This document shows positions 48,380-64,000 of a stretch of DNA of 64,000 bases, piece by piece. The number at the start of each line of letters is the position of its first letter. Position 1 is the stretch's first letter. Origin of the DNA: Burkholderiales bacterium (GTDB taxonomy: Bacteria > Pseudomonadota > Gammaproteobacteria > Burkholderiales > Burkholderiaceae_C). The position numbers and the translations under genes are program-made. The notes below the pieces were generated by a model. The model made no database searches. It was not told the DNA's origin and was given only the letters and a program-made list of their open reading frames with translations. The DNA is taken from NCBI GenBank assembly GCA_016195825.1, contig JACPYV010000004.1, positions 1 to 64,000 of the forward strand, written 5' to 3'.

Positions 48380-49468
48380 ATGGAAACCTTCTACGAGGTC
48401 ATGCGCCGGCAAGGCATCTCGCGCCGCAGCCTGCTGAAGTACTGCTCGCTCACCGCCACGTCGCTGGGCCTCGGCCCGGCCTTCGTGCCGCAGATCGCCC
48501 ACGCGATGGAAACCAAGCCGCGCACGCCGGTGCTGTGGCTGCACGGGCTGGAGTGCACCTGCTGCTCCGAGTCCTTCATCCGCTCCGCGCACCCGCTGGC
48601 CAAGGACGTAGTGCTTTCGATGATCTCGCTGGACTACGACGACACGCTGATGGCCGCTGCCGGCCATCAGGCCGAGGCGATCCTCGAAGAGATCATGACC
48701 AAGTACAAGGGCAACTACATCCTGGCCGTGGAGGGCAACCCGCCACTCAACCAGGACGGCATGAGCTGCATCATCGGCGGCAAGCCCTTCATCGATCAGC
48801 TCAAGCACGTGGCCAAGGACGCCAAGGCCATCATCAGCTGGGGCAGCTGCGCGAGCTGGGGCTGTGTGCAGGCGGCCAAGCCCAACCCGACGCAGGCGAC
48901 GCCGGTGCACAAGGTCATCTTCGACAAGCCCATCATCAAGGTGCCGGGCTGCCCGCCGATCGCCGAGGTCATGACGGGTGTCATCACCTACATGCTGACC
49001 TTTGACCGCATCCCCGAGCTGGATCGCCAGGGCCGCCCGAAGATGTTCTACAGCCAGCGCATCCACGACAAGTGCTATCGCCGCCCGCACTTCGACGCTG
49101 GCCAGTTCGTCGAGGCCTTCGACGATGAGTCCGCACGCAAGGGCTACTGCCTCTACAAGGTCGGCTGCAAGGGCCCGACGACCTACAACGCCTGTTCCAC
49201 CGTGCAGTGGAACGAAGGCACCAGCTTCCCGATCAAGGCCGGCCACGGCTGCATCGGCTGCTCCGAGGACGGCTTCTGGGACAAGGGCTCGTTCTACAAC
49301 CGCCTGACCGACATCCACCAGTTCGGCATTGAGGCCAATGCCGACAAGGTCGGCGGCACCGCGGCCGGCGTGGTTGGCGCCGCCGCGGTGGCGCATGCCG
49401 CCGCCTCGGCCATCAAGCGCGCCTCGCAGAAGCGCGAGCAGAACAACGACACGACCACCAAGGTCTGA
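48380..49468 (+). CDS. hoxK: [NiFe]-hydrogenase small subunit, oxygen-tolerant membrane-bound type (group 1d)
   Basis: A 362-residue Fe-S subunit. A Tat signal (SRRSLLKY at 14-21) is cleaved after AHA (42). In mature numbering the proximal cluster cysteines are C17, C19, C20 (ECTCCSE), C115 and C120 (CASWGC) and C149. These are the six residues of the [4Fe-3S] cluster that gives oxygen tolerance; standard enzymes have Gly at 19 and 120. Medial and distal cluster motifs follow ([34 protein letters not shown]). A C-terminal hydrophobic helix (~328-350) anchors it to HoxZ. AAGGAGA precedes the ATG. Confidence 0.97.
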
Positions 49469-49482
49469 GAGCGAGACAAACC

Positions 49483-51339
<1,857 letters not shown>

Positions 51340-52739: not shown

Positions 52740-53075
52740 ATGAGCCCCGTGCAGCACGCCGGCCGACACCTGCGGCACCCGCCCGCCGGCGTGCCGGCGC
52801 GTCTGCCGCCGCACCCGGGCCGCTTCCTGCAGCGGCATTACCTGGCACCGCTGGCGATCAACCAGAGCGACGCGGCCCGGCGTCTGGGCATGTCGCGCCG
52901 CCGGCTGCATGAACTGGTGCACGGCCAGCGCGCCGTGTCGCCCGACACCGCGCTGCGCTGCGCCCTCGTGTTCGGCAGCGACGCGGCCTTCCTGCTGGCC
53001 ATGCAGGCGGCCTGGGACAGCTTCCACGCCTGGAAGCAGATGCGCGCCCAGCCGCGCCCTTCCCCCCAACCCTGA
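52740..53075 (+). CDS. HigA-like XRE/HTH protein inside the hydrogenase operon
   Basis: A 111-residue protein 7 bp after hoxZ. Residues ~25-95 match the HigA antidote pattern: HPGRFLQRHYLAPLAINQSDAARRLGMSRRRLHELVHGQRAVSPDTALRCALVFGSDAAFLLAMQAAWD. No HigB-type toxin gene adjoins it, so it is more likely an orphan regulator than a working toxin-antitoxin pair. It lies between structural and maturation genes and could sense or damp hox expression. That role is speculative. The ribosome-binding site is weak. Confidence 0.8.
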   Translation: MSPVQHAGRHLRHPPAGVPARLPPHPGRFLQRHYLAPLAINQSDAARRLGMSRRRLHELVHGQRAVSPDTALRCALVFGSDAAFLLAMQAAWDSFHAWKQMRAQPRPSPQP

Positions 53076-55774: not shown

Positions 55775-56250
55775 CCGAGTTGACGGCACGCGTGCAGGCG
55801 CTGGAGGCGCTGTTTCGCCACGTCGAGCGCACCCGCATGGTGGGCGTGCCCGTGCTGAACACCGCGCTGCAGGTGGAGGTCGTGGGTTTCGAGCCCGTGG
55901 CCGTGGAAGACGGAGAGGCGCCTGCGGCCGTCGGTGTGCTGCTCACGCCCTGGTTCATGAACCTTGTCTGGCTGCCTCTGCAGCATCTGGCCAGCGCTGG
56001 CCTCGTGGGGCAGGCGAGGGTGCGCACGGTGGGGAGCACAAGTTTCGATTTCATCGGTGCGCACGAACCCGGCCTGGGGGCCTACGAGGCGTGCTCGCTG
56101 GCCTCGCCCATGTTCGAATTCCCCGATCAGACCCAGGCTCGCGCAACCGCCTGGGCGGTGCTGGCGGAACTGCGACAGCCCGTGCCACCGGTCTCCAACG
56201 CGCGACGCGGTTTCCTCTTCGGTCGCTCGACTGTGGAGGCGCGGCCATGA
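55771..56250 (+). CDS. hoxT: Hydrogenase accessory protein HoxT (HupJ)
   Basis: A 159-residue HupJ-family protein. It contains MVGVPVLNTALQVEVVGFEP, GVLLTPWFMNLVWLPL, and FDFIGAHEPGLGAYEACSLASPMFEF, with SNARRGFLFGRS near the end. It resembles the [NiFe]-hydrogenase assembly chaperones that follow hoxR in Ralstonia and Rhizobium operons. It helps assembly under oxygen; the exact action is unknown. It overlaps both neighbours by ATGA. Confidence 0.9.
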   Translation: MTELTARVQALEALFRHVERTRMVGVPVLNTALQVEVVGFEPVAVEDGEAPAAVGVLLTPWFMNLVWLPLQHLASAGLVGQARVRTVGSTSFDFIGAHEPGLGAYEACSLASPMFEFPDQTQARATAWAVLAELRQPVPPVSNARRGFLFGRSTVEARP

Positions 56251-57365
56251 CCAGCCTGGACCAGCTTGCCGGCGTGCTGCGCCTGCGTCCGGGCGAAGCT
56301 CGGCCGGGGAGCGTGCTCAACAACCGTCCCGACTGGGCCGGTACGCTGGCGCGCGGCAAGTCGACCGCGGAGGTGCCGGGTCTGCTGGCCAGCCTCTACA
56401 GCCTGTGCGGCCACGCGCACCGCCTGTGCTCGCAGATGGCCCTGCAGGCGGCCGAACACGGCGACGTGCGAGCGGATGCCGGTGCCGCCCGCGCGCTGCA
56501 GTCGGAGACCTTGTGCGAGCACGTGCGCCGCATCGGCCTGGACTGGCCGCGTACGCTTTCATCTGCTGCCGTGGGCGACGCGGCACTGTCCCTGCGCTGC
56601 TGTCCGGCGCTGAGGGCGCGCGATGCCGATGTGCTCGACACGCGTCTGTGGCTGCAGCGCCACCTGCTTGGCATGCCGGTGGCAGACTGGCTGCGCGGCT
56701 GGGACGCCGAGTCAGGCTGGTGGGCCGAGTGGAGTATGGCCGGCCATGGCTGGCTGCCGGCTCTGGTGCACCATGCCCGCGTTGCGGCCGACTGGCCCGT
56801 CGTTGCCGCCGAGCCGCTGCATGTGCATGCCGGTGCGGTATCGCTGCGCCAGCTGGCGGCCTGCTTGCGCGAGGCGCCTGGCTACACCCGCCAGCCTCGG
56901 TGGCAGGACGACTGCGCCGAGACCGGCAGCTGGACCCGCCTGCACGATTCCGCCCGCCCCATGCCCGCCACGCCGTGGGCGCGCCTGGGCGCGCGCGTGG
57001 CCGAACTGGCGCGCCTGACCCTGCCCGACGTTCCGGGCCGCAGTGGCAACGGCTGGCTGGCGTTCGGCGGGATGCAGATCGCGCCTGGCGAAGGCCTGGC
57101 CTGGGTGGAGATGGCGCGGGGCCTGTTGGTGCACCACGCCATGATCGACGGCGGGTCCGGCCGCGTGGGCGCCTACCGCGTGCTCGCGCCCACCGAGTGG
57201 AACTTCCACCAGGACGGCGCCGTGGCCACGGCGCTGGAGAGCCTGCATCCGGCGCGCGGTGCCCCCACGCAGCGCCGCCTGGCGGCGCTGATGGCCGCAT
57301 ACGATCCCTGTGTGCGCTTCGAGGTGGAGACGCAGGCCGTGGAAGAGGAGCGCACCCATGCATGA
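56247..57365 (+). CDS. hoxV: Hydrogenase maturation scaffold HoxV (HupK)
   Basis: A 372-residue protein distantly related to the hydrogenase large subunit, without the full set of Ni-binding cysteines (SLCGHAHRLC is the remnant of the L1 motif; C-terminal AAYDPCVRFEVETQ is the remnant of L2). HoxV is thought to hold the Fe(CN)2CO unit transiently before HoxG. It overlaps hoxT by 4 bp and the hypA start by 8 bp. Confidence 0.9.
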   Translation: MTSLDQLAGVLRLRPGEARPGSVLNNRPDWAGTLARGKSTAEVPGLLASLYSLCGHAHRLCSQMALQAAEHGDVRADAGAARALQSETLCEHVRRIGLDWPRTLSSAAVGDAALSLRCCPALRARDADVLDTRLWLQRHLLGMPVADWLRGWDAESGWWAEWSMAGHGWLPALVHHARVAADWPVVAAEPLHVHAGAVSLRQLAACLREAPGYTRQPRWQDDCAETGSWTRLHDSARPMPATPWARLGARVAELARLTLPDVPGRSGNGWLAFGGMQIAPGEGLAWVEMARGLLVHHAMIDGGSGRVGAYRVLAPTEWNFHQDGAVATALESLHPARGAPTQRRLAALMAAYDPCVRFEVETQAVEEERTHA

Positions 57366-57702
57366 AGCCAGCCTGGCCGGCGGCATCCTGAAGCTGGTGG
57401 AGGACGCCGCGCGACGCGAGGGATTTCGCCGTGTGTCAGCGCTGCGCCTGGAGGCCGGCCGGCTGGCCGGCGTGGAGGTGCGTGCGCTGCGCTTTGCGCT
57501 GGAGGCCATCGCCCCGGGCACGGTGCTGCAGGGAGCCAGCATCGACATCGACGAGCCCGAGGGTCAGGCCTAGTGCCTGCCCTGCGCCGCCACCGTGGCG
57601 CTGGCCCGGCGTGGCGACCCTTGCCCCCAATGTTCAAGCTACCAGCTGCAGCCCATCGGCGGGACCGAGCTGCGCGTGGTGGACCTGCTGGTTGACGAAT
57701 AA
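57358..57702 (+). pseudogene. hypA: hypA interrupted by an in-frame TAG before the zinc-finger domain
   Basis: The N-terminal part ([20 protein letters not shown], nickel-binding His2, to DEPEGQA at 71) is intact. Codon 72 (57571-57573) is TAG. Reading on in the same frame gives CLPC, CPQC and [14 protein letters not shown] to a TAA at 57700, exactly the HypA zinc domain. The family has Trp before the first Cys pair, so TGG to TAG is a one-base change. Possible outcomes are a 71-residue truncated protein (nickel site but no zinc site), readthrough, or a sequence error. HypA normally delivers nickel to HoxG with HypB. Confidence 0.9.
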
Positions 57703-57712
57703 GGAGACGACG

Positions 57713-58651
57713 ATGTGTGTGGTGTGCGGATGTGCCGACAACGGCGACGGAGCAGCGAAGACTCACGATCATGCCCACGGGCATGACCACGATCACGGCC
57801 ATGTTCACGTGGACCCGAAGCAGGGTGACCTGCATTTCGGCGCCGGTGCAGCGCGCGTTTCCGTGCCGGGCATGAGCCAGGCGCGCACGGTCAAGCTGGA
57901 GGCAGACATCCTCGGCGAGAACCGCCGGATTGCGCAGCAGAACCGTCGCCACTTCGAGGCCCACGGCGTGACGGCGCTCAACCTGTTGTCCAGCCCGGGC
58001 TCGGGCAAGACGACGCTGCTGTGCGCCACAATCGAAGCGCTGAAGCGTCGCGCACCCGGCATGGACGTGGCCGTCATCGAGGGCGACCAGCAGACCAGCT
58101 TCGACGCCGACCGCATCCGCGCCACCGGTGCGCCGGCCATCCAGGTCAACACCGGCAAGGGCTGCCACCTGGATGCGCCCATGGTGGCCGAGGCCTTCGG
58201 TCAGCTGCACAGCCACGACCACCATCACGGGCATGGCCAGGCGCCAGGCAGCCTGCTCTTCATCGAGAACGTGGGCAACCTCGTCTGCCCTGCACTGTGG
58301 GACCTGGGTGAAGCGGCCAAAGTCGTCGTGCTCTCGGTGACCGAGGGCGAGGACAAGCCGCTGAAGTACCCCGACATGTTTGCCGCCGCGGAGCTGATGG
58401 TTCTCAACAAGGTGGACCTGCTGCCGCACCTGCGCTTTGACGTGCAGCGGTGCATCGACATGGCGCGGCGTGTGAACCCGACGCTGGAGGTGCTGCAGCT
58501 CTCGGCGACGACTGGGGAAGGCATGGATGCGTGGCTGGATTGGCTGCTTGCTTGGACGAGACCCGAAAACGACAGTCAGGCCGCGCTTCGTGCCCGTGTT
58601 GCCGCACTCGAATCCGAGCTGGCACAAGCCCGCGCGGCCCTGGAAGGCTGA
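57713..58651 (+). CDS. hypB: Hydrogenase nickel incorporation GTPase HypB
   Basis: A 312-residue G-protein. The N-terminal CxxCxC (C2, C5, C7) is a high-affinity nickel motif, followed by a His-rich stretch (18-32) that stores nickel. G1 is at 94-101 (SPGSGKTT) and [11 protein letters not shown] is G4. A second His run ([12 protein letters not shown]) lies mid-protein in an unusual position. The C-terminal ~25 residues ([20 protein letters not shown]) form a short coiled coil not typical of HypB. It is 10 bp after the full-length hypA end. Confidence 0.95.
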
Positions 58652-59760
58652 TGACTGCCGTTCTCGCCTTCGGCGCCTGGCTGAAGAACACGGCCTGCCT
58701 GCTGGCCGACGGCCGGGCGCAGTGGTCGCCGGTGCACGGCGACCTGAGTGACCCTGAGGCCTGCCGGGCGCTGGACGCGTGGGTGCGTCAACGCTTCGCG
58801 GAGTCGTCCGAGTCGGTCGCGGCCGTAGCGCATGACCTGCATCCCGACTTCTTCAGCACTCGCCTCGCGCAGCAGCTTGCCGCCGAATGGGGTGTGACGG
58901 CCGTGGCCGTGCAGCACCACCATGCCCACATCGGCGTGGTGATGGCCGACCATGGTGTCGACGAACCGGTGGTGGGTCTCGCGCTGGACGGTGTGGGTCT
59001 GGGCACCGACGGCACGGCTTGGGGCGGCGAGCTGTTGTGGGTGGCGCCCGGTGCCTGGCGCCGCATCGGGGGGCTGTGGCCGCTTCCACTGCCCGGCGGC
59101 GACGTGGCGGCACGCGAGCCCTGGCGCATGGCGGCGGCTGCGATGCATGCGCTGGGGCGGGGCGGCGAGATCGAGCAGCGCTTTGCCCCTGTCATTGGCA
59201 CCACGGTCGCCAAGGGCGTACAGCGCATGCTGGCGGCAAATCTGAACTGCCCCGTCACCACCAGCACCGGCCGCTGGTTCGACGCCGCGGCTGGCGCGCT
59301 GGCCTTGAGCGTTCGCCAGGCCCACGAGGCCGAGGCCGCCGTCGCGCTGGAGCAGCTGGCCGCCCGGCATCTGGCCCACGCGACCGTGCAGCCGCACGGC
59401 GACTTGGTCGACACCCAGGCGCTGCAGCGGCTGGACCTGCGCCCGCTGCTGGCGCGCCTGCTTGATGCCCCCGAGCCGGCCGAGGCCGCCGCCTGGTTCC
59501 ATGTGTCGCTGGCCCAGGCGCTGGCGGACTGGGCCGCTGCTGCTGCCCACGAGACCGGCACTCGCACCGTCTGCCTGGGCGGTGGCTGCTTCTTCAACGC
59601 GGTGCTGACCGAGCATGTCGTGCGTCGACTGACGTCGCACGGCTTGCGCGTGCTCGGCACCCGCTCCACCAACTGCGGCGATGCCGGTCTGGCACTGGGC
59701 CAGGCCTGGGTTGCCGCGCATCAACTGGCCCACCTCAGCGAGACCGCCTCATGTGCCTAG
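58651..59760 (+). CDS. hypF: Truncated HypF (HypF1-like), carbamoyltransferase C-terminal domain only
   Basis: A 369-residue protein corresponding to the Kae1-like C-terminal half of HypF (VQHHHAHIGVVMADHG metal site; LALDGVGLGTDGTAWGGELL; TGRWFDAAAGALAL; VCLGGGCFFNAVLTE). The acylphosphatase, zinc-finger and YrdC-like domains of full HypF (~750 residues) are absent. A similar short HypF1 exists in the C. necator membrane-hydrogenase cluster, so this is not necessarily a defect. A separate full-length HypF or other activity would be needed to form carbamoyl-adenylate. It overlaps hypB by one base. Confidence 0.92.
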   Translation: MTAVLAFGAWLKNTACLLADGRAQWSPVHGDLSDPEACRALDAWVRQRFAESSESVAAVAHDLHPDFFSTRLAQQLAAEWGVTAVAVQHHHAHIGVVMADHGVDEPVVGLALDGVGLGTDGTAWGGELLWVAPGAWRRIGGLWPLPLPGGDVAAREPWRMAAAAMHALGRGGEIEQRFAPVIGTTVAKGVQRMLAANLNCPVTTSTGRWFDAAAGALALSVRQAHEAEAAVALEQLAARHLAHATVQPHGDLVDTQALQRLDLRPLLARLLDAPEPAEAAAWFHVSLAQALADWAAAAAHETGTRTVCLGGGCFFNAVLTEHVVRRLTSHGLRVLGTRSTNCGDAGLALGQAWVAAHQLAHLSETASCA

Positions 59761-59978
59761 CCATCCCCACCCGATTGATCGAGATCCGCCCCGGCGCGCA
59801 GGCGCTGGTGGAACTCGGTGGCATCCGCAAGGAAATCTCCATCGCCCTCGTGCCGGAGGCAGTCGTCGGTGACTACGTCATCGTCCACGTCGGCCACGCC
59901 ATCGGCCAGCTTGACCCGGAAGAAGCGGAGCGCACCTTGCGAATGTTCGGCGAGTTGGCATCCCAGGAGGCGAACTGA
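59751..59978 (+). CDS. hypC: Hydrogenase maturation chaperone HypC
   Basis: A 75-residue protein starting MCLAIPTRLIEI, with Cys2 as the Fe-ligand. HVGHAIGQLDPEEAERTL is the conserved C-terminal helix. It works with HypD in building the Fe(CN)2CO moiety and presents it to large subunits. Its start lies within the end of hypF (10-bp overlap) and it ends one base before the hypD ATG. Confidence 0.96.
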   Translation: MCLAIPTRLIEIRPGAQALVELGGIRKEISIALVPEAVVGDYVIVHVGHAIGQLDPEEAERTLRMFGELASQEAN

Positions 59979-59979
59979 C

Positions 59980-61124
<1,145 letters not shown>

Positions 61125-61128
<4 letters not shown>

Positions 61129-62183
61129 GCAACGTTGCAAAGAAGGACCACGTCCGCCCGCTGGACATCAGGCACGGCCGCGTGGACATGAGTCACGGCG
61201 CCGGCGGCCGGGCCTCGGCCCAGCTCATCGAGGAGCTTTTTCAGGTTGCGCTGGCCAACGAATGGCTGGCCCAGGGCAATGACGGGGCGGCGTTCGCCAT
61301 TCCGCAGGGGGCGCGCATGGTGATGGCGACGGACGCGCATGTCGTCTCGCCCCTGTTCTTCCCCGGCGGAGACCTGGGCTCACTCGCCGTGCACGGCACG
61401 ATCAATGACGTGGCCATGTGCGGAGCGCGGCCGCTGTACCTGTCGGCCAGCTTCATCCTGGAGGAGGGTTTCCCGCTGGCGGAACTCAAACGCATCGTGG
61501 ACGCCATGGCCGCTGCCGCGCGCGAGGCGGGCGTACCTGTCATCACCGGTGATACCAAGGTGGTCGAGAAGGGCAAGGGCGACGGGGTGTTCATCAGTAC
61601 CACCGGCATCGGTGTGGTGCCGGTGGGCGTGGACGTGTCGGGCGCCAACGCGCGGCCGGGCGACGTGATCCTGCTGTCGGGCACGGTGGGAGACCACGGC
61701 GTGGCAGTGCTGTCCCAGCGCGAGTCGCTGGAGTTCGAGACGACGATTGAATCCGACTCCGCCGCGCTGCACGGCCTGGTGGCCGTCATGCTGGCCGCCG
61801 CCCCCGGCGGCGTGCGCGTGCTGCGCGACCCCACGCGGGGTGGCCTGGCCACCACGCTGAATGAGATCGCTCGCCAGTCCGGCGCCGGCATGCTGCTGGA
61901 GGAGGCGGCCATCCCGGTGAAGCCGCAGGTGGACGCGGCCTGCGAACTGCTGGGGCTGGACCCGCTGTACGTGGCCAACGAGGGCAAGCTCGTCGCCATT
62001 TGCGCGCCAGAGTTTGCGCAAGGGCTGCTGGCCGCCATGCACGACCACCCGCTGGGCCGCCAGGCGGCGCGCATCGGCGTGGTGGTGGAAGACGCCCACC
62101 GATTCGTGCAGATGAACACCCGCTTCGGTGGCCGCCGCGTGGTGGACTGGCTCAGTGGCGAGCAGTTGCCGCGCATCTGCTGA
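61125..62183 (+). CDS. hypE: Hydrogenase maturation protein HypE
   Basis: A 352-residue AIR-synthase-like enzyme that dehydrates the carbamoyl thioester on its own C-terminal cysteine to thiocyanate. The terminal PRIC motif (C352) is intact. The ATP site segments MSHGAGGRAS, GTINDVAMCGARPLYLSA, TGDTKVVEKGKGDG and DPTRGGLATTLNEIA are present. Start and stop are clean. It is the last hyp gene of the operon; no hypX follows. Confidence 0.97.
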
Positions 62184-62210
62184 CGCTGGGGCATTGCTGG
62201 GAGGAGCGCC

Positions 62211-62735
62211 GTGGACGATCCGCTGGACCGCGTCTACCGCAAGACGGAGCTCGCGCGCAGCGAGCTGGGAGCGCGCACGCGCAGCCTGCACGGGACGGCG
62301 CGCACGGTGTTGATCCTTGTGGACGGGCGCAGCAGCGTACGGGCGCTGACCGCGCGGCTGGGTCACGACGCGGCTGCTGCGCTGGCCGAGCTGGCGCGCG
62401 CGGGGTACGTGGAGGAAGCCCTGCCGCCTGCGGCCCCTCCTGCACGCGTGCCACCCCCTTCACCCCCTTCACCCCTATCACCTCCTGCGCCGATGTCATC
62501 GCCGCCGCCCGAAGCGGCGCTCTCGCTGGCGCGACGCGAGGCGCTGGCCCGGCTCACGCCGCACTTCGGGCCTGACGTGGAGATCGTGGCCCGGCCACTG
62601 CTGCAAGCCACCGACCGCGAGGCCTTCAACGCCGGGCTGGACCAGATCGAGCGCAAGCTCGCGCTCTACCTGGGCAAGGCCCAGGCCGCACGCGAGCTGG
62701 CCGACCTGCGCCAGCCGGCGGCGGACATAAGATGA
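62211..62735 (+). CDS. Unknown protein with winged-helix-like N terminus and proline-rich linker
   Basis: A 174-residue protein starting with GTG at 62211 (GGGAGGAG site). Residues ~20-70 look like a small winged-helix segment (GTARTVLILVDGRSSVRALTARLGHDAAAALAELARAGYVEE). Residues ~71-101 are proline-rich, encoded by a tandem C-rich repeat (~62452-62482). The C-terminal ~70 residues are predicted helical (DREAFNAGLDQIERKLALYLGKAQAARELADL). It lies 27 bp after hypE and 106 bp before the HoxA-type gene. I do not recognise a named family. Its place suggests a regulatory or assembly role. Confidence 0.7.
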   Translation: MDDPLDRVYRKTELARSELGARTRSLHGTARTVLILVDGRSSVRALTARLGHDAAAALAELARAGYVEEALPPAAPPARVPPPSPPSPLSPPAPMSSPPPEAALSLARREALARLTPHFGPDVEIVARPLLQATDREAFNAGLDQIERKLALYLGKAQAARELADLRQPAADIR

Positions 62736-62841
62736 ACGCACGGCGCCCGCAGGCGGGCCACCGCCCGAACCCGAACCCACGCATGCGTCGCCCAGCCCAC
62801 GGTCTTCGTCCCGCAGTCGCCACCCGCCCCGGAGGCCCCGC

Positions 62842-64000
62842 ATGAGCCCGGCGCTGTCCCTGCCTGTGGTGCTGGTGGTCGACGACGAGGTGCGCTCGCA
62901 GGACGCGATGCGCCGCACGCTCGACGAGGACTTCGTCGTGCTCACCGCCAGCGGTGCAGACGAGGCCCGCGTGCACCTGGAGCGGCAGGACGTCAGCGTC
63001 ATCCTGTGCGACCAGCGCATGCCCGGCCTCACCGGTGTGGCGTTCCTGAAGGAGGTGCGCGAGCGTTGGCCTGACACGGTGCGCATCGTCATCTCGGGCT
63101 ACACCGACTCCGAAGACATCATTGCCGGGATCAACGACGCCGGCATCTACCAGTACATCCTCAATCCCTGGATCCCAGAGCATCTGTTGGGCACCGCACG
63201 CAACGCGGCGGAGGCGCGCACGCTGCAACGCGACATGCACCGGCTGGACCTGGAGCTGCGCACCAGCACGCCAGTGCTGCGCCAGCGCGCCGAGCGCAAG
63301 CTGGAGCGCGCCCGCGCCACGTTCGACTTCGACCGCATCGAGCGCCTACCGGGCAGCCCCATGGACGGCGTTTGCGCGCTGGCCGAACGCATGGCGCGGG
63401 TGGATCTGAGCGTGCTGGTGCAGGGTGAATCCGGCACCGGCAAGGAGCTGCTGGCGCGCGCCATGCACTACGCCAGCCCGCGGGCGGCGGGGTCTTTCGT
63501 CGTGGAGAACTGCGCGGCGTTGACCGACACGCTGCTGGAGTCCGAACTGTTCGGCCACAAGCGCGGCGCGTTCACCGGTGCCTTCGACGACCACGTGGGC
63601 CTGTTCCAGCGTGCCGACGGCGGCACCATCTTCCTGGACGAGATCGGCGAGACCTCGCCAGCCTTCCAGCTGCGCCTGCTGCGCGTGCTGCAGGAGGGTG
63701 AGGTAAGACCGGTGGGGGCGACGCGCGTGGTGCCGGTGGATGTGCGTGTCATCGCCGCCACCCACCGTGACCTGGAGCAGCGCGTGCGCGACGGGCACTT
63801 CCGTGAAGACCTCTACTACCGCATCGCCTGCGTCACGCTGACGGTGCCACCGCTGCGCGAACGCAGCGGCGACATCGGCGTCATCGCACGTCGGCTGCTG
63901 GCCGACGTATCTCCGGCCCTGGGCCGCCCGCAGGCCCGGCTGGGCGATGAAGGCCTGGCCGCGTTGCTGGCCTACCCCTGGCCCGGCAACATCCGCGAGC
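62842..64000 (+). CDS. hoxA: HoxA-type sigma-54-dependent response regulator (3' end beyond window)
   Basis: 386 residues are visible and the frame is still open at the window end. The receiver domain (8-125) has acidic D14/D15 and phospho-acceptor D57, but the usual conserved Lys is Asn (N108, in QYILNPW). The AAA+ domain has Walker A at 195-202 (GESGTGKE), the sigma-54-binding GAFTGA at 242-247, and GGTIFLDEIGE. The C-terminal Fis-type HTH lies beyond the window. In C. necator HoxA activates the hox promoters in the unphosphorylated form. A GGAGG site lies ~7 bp before the ATG. Confidence 0.93.
   Translation, partial: MSPALSLPVVLVVDDEVRSQDAMRRTLDEDFVVLTASGADEARVHLERQDVSVILCDQRMPGLTGVAFLKEVRERWPDTVRIVISGYTDSEDIIAGINDAGIYQYILNPWIPEHLLGTARNAAEARTLQRDMHRLDLELRTSTPVLRQRAERKLERARATFDFDRIERLPGSPMDGVCALAERMARVDLSVLVQGESGTGKELLARAMHYASPRAAGSFVVENCAALTDTLLESELFGHKRGAFTGAFDDHVGLFQRADGGTIFLDEIGETSPAFQLRLLRVLQEGEVRPVGATRVVPVDVRVIAATHRDLEQRVRDGHFREDLYYRIACVTLTVPPLRERSGDIGVIARRLLADVSPALGRPQARLGDEGLAALLAYPWPGNIRE

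Follow-up and report, generated by a model that had tools for sequence, protein, structure and literature searches.

The hypA gene of a hydrogenase operon in a draft Burkholderiales genome contains an in-frame TAG at codon 72, which comparison with relatives indicates to be an isolated single-base difference, private to this one assembly. The presence of the stop is confirmed; its origin is slightly most likely a wrong consensus base in the draft, a reading to which a probability of about 0.5 is assigned, with a real mutation as its close rival. The initial annotation, which had named an assembly error as the outcome that would overturn its reading of the stop, is partly supported. The window is the whole stretch of 64,000 nucleotides that was analysed, and positions without a contig code follow its numbering; its own genome, indicated as G000, is an assembly of 6.0 Mb in 207 contigs, 93.35% complete, and its contig is indicated as C75.

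The whole hypA frame lies on the plus strand at 57358-57702 and comprises 114 codons with a single internal stop, reading from MHEASLAGG to EPEGQA before it and from CLPCAA to VDE, followed by its own stop, after it. The gene resembles those of the HypA/HybF metallochaperones (PF01155, TIGR00100), with an MHE start, a CxxC...CxxC arrangement and a position at the head of a hypABFCDE series. The part preceding the stop (codons 1-71, 57358-57570) carries the MHE nickel motif and matches PF01155 with 59.6 bits over profile positions 1-70; the part that follows the TAG (57571-57573), namely codons 73-114 and the terminal TAA (57574-57702), encodes both CxxC motifs of the zinc site and resumes the profile at position 73, its 42 residues scoring 25.5 bits, which alone is below the 28.9 cut-off. 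When the TAG is read through, the match reaches 99.7 bits (96.9 in the genome scan) over positions 1-110 of 112, in agreement with the earlier statement that the downstream frame is preserved to its own stop; the Pfam cut-off is passed, while that of the NCBIfam HypA model is missed even with read-through (79.3 versus 88.1 bits). No frameshift is seen in hypA, six relatives aligning end to end over the 114 codons, and no promoter-like or terminator-like sites were found at 57300-57800. The difference from the family resides in the TAG, placed immediately before the first zinc-binding cysteine: the product translated up to this codon lacks the zinc site, which would be present only if the TAG is read or miscalled, since all four cysteines are located 3' of it.

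A contig search with the read-through HypA protein identified 118 relatives, the best 80 of which were kept. Codon 72 is TGG, coding for Trp, in 80/80 of these, as had been proposed for the position preceding the zinc-finger CxxC; this count is not proof against further TAG cases, because one of the six search patterns includes the Trp and records of the own genome were possibly excluded. All of the best 80 of 118 also retain C73, C76, C89 and C92, together with H2 and E3 of the MHE motif, and their HypA proteins have a length of 113-117 aa, with no truncated forms (0/80). Within the genus, a PF01155/HypA match is present in 7 of 20 genomes, own included, and the stop occurs in the own genome only, the six same-genus relatives with HypA having open genes with TGG at codon 72. 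At the family level a HypA match is found in 93 of 399 genomes, 89 of them above the cut-off, and G000 alone carries the stop; the suggested comparison with close relatives indicates that it is private among the 93 matching genomes. Moreover, the sequence context of the TAG was recovered in 3 of 281 fetched loci, and all three are this hypA site itself.

The operon surrounding hypA is open. Comparison of the 18 genes from hoxK to hypE with six relatives revealed an internal stop in hypA only, and in G000 only; the 17 neighbouring genes contain none, and operon-wide decay is not seen in G000 over this interval. On the plus strand, the open genes include those for the hydrogenase small subunit (hoxK, 48380-49468; TIGR00391, 565 bits) and large subunit (hoxG, 49483-51339; PF00374, 707 bits; NF007550, 840 bits, below the cut-off of 1101), and a gene which we take to be hoxV from gene order (56244-57365), whose start codon is not fixed and whose 3' end overlaps the start of hypA by 8 nt. 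Downstream are hypB (57713-58651; TIGR00073, 276 bits), a short form of hypF (58651-59760; PF22521 and PF17788 over cut-off), hypC (59751-59978; PF01455), hypD (59980-61128; PF01924, 507 bits) and hypE (61125-62183; PF00586 and PF02769), and then an open gene for a 482-aa response regulator, presumably hoxA (62842-64000), which continues beyond the window to C75:64290. The 17 genes compared bear out the earlier description of the other hox and hyp genes as open. To call them all ATGA-coupled goes too far, however: hypB has an AAGGAG of its own and begins 10 nt downstream of the hypA stop. A truncation of hypF as a G000 lesion was considered and ruled out, because its full length is covered in the alignments with all six relatives and the ORFs of G005 and G011 have 372 codons. 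Positions 57087-57314 within hoxV give a weak match to the NiFe large subunit (20.1 bits, below cut-off).

The gene order and the short HypF are those of the hyp1 operon (hypA1B1F1CDE, with HypF1) of Cupriavidus necator, as presented in an excerpt of PMC9100943; the G000 locus differs in the hypA stop and in the absence of hypX. In C. necator, HypX is responsible for the CO ligand made under air (same excerpt). A HypX-like gene occurs between hypE and hoxA in four of the six same-genus relatives (G005, G006, G011 and G014), the G005 protein having 586 aa with formyltransferase-like and enoyl-CoA-hydratase-like parts; it is absent from this locus in G000 (window 62184-62841), G002 and G017, and no match was obtained elsewhere in G000 within the 1.48 Mb searched.

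The initial annotation had also considered that another hypA could substitute for the interrupted one and had suggested a whole-genome search for a second hypA/hybF. The PF01155 scan of G000 found one match and no second HypA in this 93.35% complete draft, of which about 7% may be missing. Two hydrogenase large subunits exceed the cut-off in G000, both on C75, one at 49639-51291 and the other, split in two, at 65414-66760; the latter, judging from gene order, is presumably a regulatory enzyme. Both large subunits would rely on this hypA.

The hypA TAG is not the only isolated stop in the assembly. A Markov model was used to search 1,477,729 bases of G000, about a quarter of the genome, for in-frame stops flanked by coding signal, after a simple codon log-odds scan could not tell true from antisense frames; candidates were sorted by eye, not blind. 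The scan yielded 56 candidates, 48 of which were judged junctions or artefacts and eight mid-gene stops, including hypA; the same scan in four relatives (G002, G005, G011 and G014; 540,031 bases) gave 13, i.e. 11 junctions and two ambiguous cases (G005 C3, minus strand, 48013; G014 C101, plus strand, 48132). The excess of mid-gene stops over relatives is not significant, either as 8 versus 0 (p = 0.083) or as 7 versus the two ambiguous ones (p = 0.55). In G000 and relatives alike, numerous other stops and frameshift-like breaks were assigned by eye to antisense or wrong-frame ORFs, or to positions 5' of likely real starts, and discarded, save hypA and the peptidase TAA described below.

Two of the mid-gene stops affect rodA and lpd. 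The rodA gene for cell shape (G000 C65:8609-9763, L265) has a TAG at codon 115 of 384 (C65:8951), where aligned solved RodA/MrdB chains (8tj3_B, 6bar_A) have Gln; the piece 3' of it alone scores 334.7 bits with TIGR02210, against a cut-off of 336.7, and the nearest other match in the sampled quarter of G000 is 27% identical and probably FtsW. Rod-shaped bacteria need RodA. The lpd gene for dihydrolipoyl dehydrogenase (G000 C130:27844-29265, L280) has a TAG at codon 69 of 473 (C130:28048), where the best match, 6aon_A, has Glu and the next two have His; by eye, it lies directly 3' of the end of an apparent dehydrogenase-complex gene.

The other mid-gene stops of the scan are a TAG in an ABC-2-like permease (by eye; C200), a TAA in an S41-type peptidase (family by eye; C88:13031), where both relatives have TTC, two doubtful cases in uncharacterised proteins (C49, TAG; C4, TAA), and a TAG in a Fic-like gene, which is probably a true pseudogene, a conserved motif also appearing altered. 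Scans of protein families added three chance finds. A sugar ABC ATPase has a TAG at C19:13604-13606, at the conserved Gln of the 'IIHQEL' motif; TAG was found in 1 of 106 ABC ATPase matches in G000 versus 0 of 102 in G005. A LysR regulator has a TAG at C25:2016 (1 of 59 matches, G000 being scanned alone), and an MFS transporter (C137:7036-8175) has a TAA, in a gapless alignment in which G002 and G005 have TAC, this case being among the matches listed from at least 65 in G000. A TGA in an MFS gene on C148 of G000 was rejected, the gene being open in another frame; among the matches listed, raw TGA rows were one in G005 and two in G011. The resulting set of ten stops, from which the Fic-like gene is omitted and in which the doubtful C49 and C4 cases and the chance finds are included, consists of seven TAG, three TAA and no TGA, and agrees better with a uniform single-base change (64, 19 and 16% expected; p = 0.37) than with a transitions-only model (p = 0.017).

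At least some of these isolated stops are probably false, because a living cell should hardly carry the rodA and lpd lesions unsuppressed. The hypA TAG and the other isolated stops would then arise from sequencing or assembly error, and the argument is based on which genes are hit, two of them being genes that a rod-shaped aerobe should not lose, and not on the stop count. The absence of a second lesion in hypA and the mostly silent private changes of the operon point in the same direction. If the consensus base is wrong, the living cell would have an ordinary intact hypA coding for a 114-residue nickel metallochaperone, which, by analogy with its family, would act with HypB in handing nickel to the HoxG precursor. 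On the other hand, the genes hit besides rodA and lpd mostly look dispensable, as real pseudogenes would, and the G000 operon has no excess of private replacements such as would betray a high error rate. The case shares with both ordinary nonsense pseudogenes and consensus-error nonsense codons of drafts a single substitution, a single assembly and an intact frame 3' of the stop, and no difference from them was found. A literature search on hypA with 'premature stop codon' had a sole match, concerning rpoS in Vibrio, and one on nonsense codons caused by sequencing errors in metagenome-assembled genomes found no papers. Were the base wrong, gene predictions for this draft would wrongly report an interrupted hydrogen-oxidation pathway; given the rodA and lpd TAGs, isolated stops in the G000 assembly should not be taken as biology without reads.

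A real, recent and private nonsense mutation, leaving a hypA null, is a serious competitor at somewhat less than even odds. The product would be a 71-residue fragment that keeps MHE but is devoid of the zinc site. Insertion of nickel into HoxG, and likewise into the second large subunit, would be impaired, and hydrogen oxidation would be lost or become dependent on high nickel. Impaired nickel delivery, the first option of the initial annotation, is possible if the stop is real. Indeed, hypA disruption in various microbes leads to a hydrogenase deficiency that nickel partly overcomes (excerpt of PMC3287977). No second HypA was found that could compensate within the 93.35% complete draft. The gene should be dispensable for heterotrophic growth.

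The distribution of private substitutions also hints at a real and older stop, although the signal consists of six changes only. The counts omit G011, which is near identical to G005; the hoxK and hoxG matches of G017, with 26% identity and probably from a paralogue on a contig ending there, are omitted from the general count and retained in the strict totals. In the 17 other operon genes the changes private to G000 are 468 silent and 156 replacement. In hypA they are 6 silent and 1 replacement in codons 1-71, and 2 silent and 4 replacement in codons 73-114, a lean to replacements with one-sided Fisher p = 0.039 versus the operon and p = 0.086 versus codons 1-71, which weakly hints at decay. 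Two of the four post-stop replacements are the commonest residues in the best 80 of 118 relatives, A81 (41/80) and Y95 (50/80). The other two are unusual, I100 (0/80; T in 74) and E114 (0/80; D in 74), the latter possibly reflecting an indel. By the strict count the G000 operon has 196 silent and 27 replacement changes, and an excess of private replacements over relatives is not seen. The 17 neighbouring genes without internal stops also weigh against a real loss, except that the rest of the operon would be intact if the loss is recent, and the comparable stops in rodA and lpd are not easily real losses. If real, the stop would be a naturally occurring hypA null within a hydrogenase operon that is open in all other respects; it could serve for tests of nickel dependence, though it would not be new in kind.

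Read-through of the TAG and a working fragment, both raised by the initial annotation, are jointly unlikely. Read-through that yields sufficient full-length HypA, whether by natural leakiness or with an amber-suppressor tRNA, is improbable. It would agree with the intact frame 3' of the stop and with the TAGs likewise found inside rodA and lpd, and a suppressor could sit in an assembly gap, since the tRNA set is incomplete, the G000 list lacking tRNA-Trp, Tyr, Glu, Asp and Ile. However, no tRNA with a CTA anticodon is present in this incomplete set, which comprises the 36 confirmed by ARAGORN out of 37 Rfam hits. TAG terminates 102 of 577 long ORFs in G000 (17.7%) versus 39 of 215 in relatives (18.1%); with no such tRNA in the set and terminator use unchanged, a reassigned or suppressed TAG in G000 is not supported. 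Comparable isolated stops also occur as TAA, the homologous residues at TAG sites differ (Trp in hypA, Gln in RodA), and TAG at codon 72 is found in none of the best 80 of 118 relatives and in none of the six same-genus ones. A broader version, in which amber codons in hypA, rodA, lpd, the sugar-transport ATPase and LysR are tolerated genome-wide through an unassembled UAG-reading tRNA, with UAG still ending other genes, is very improbable; if it were true, hydrogenase maturation and even cell-shape synthesis would rely on partial read-through.

That nickel delivery could be sustained by the 71-residue fragment, or by both halves translated separately, is hardly to be expected. The fragment retains MHE, and a GTG, the eighth codon after the stop, is available 3' of it, but all four zinc cysteines, invariant in the best 80 of 118 relatives, lie beyond the stop, and none of those relatives has a truncated protein. 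In Helicobacter pylori, single zinc-site mutants have reduced hydrogenase activity, 9-15% of wild type for C74A, C74D, C91A and C94A and 36-60% for C77A, C77D, C91D and C94D, while the H2A mutant has zero activity; deletion of hypA lowers urease activity forty-fold, and nickel restores it (excerpt of PMC7055735).

Some features of the region were observed besides the hypA stop. A small helix-turn-helix ORF (52740-53075), HigA-like by eye, lies within the hox operon, flanked by the cytochrome b gene and hoxM, and aligns at 82-91% in 6/6 relatives. A HypA match is absent from 13 of the 20 genus genomes. RuBisCO genes, recognized by eye, form with the hydrogenase genes a block of about 36 kb (C75:31700-68041), pieces of which are 84-90% identical in G005, G011 and G014; the alignment ends on both sides of the block, although on the right side two of the three contigs from relatives come close to their own ends, and the block is possibly a mobile autotrophy island.
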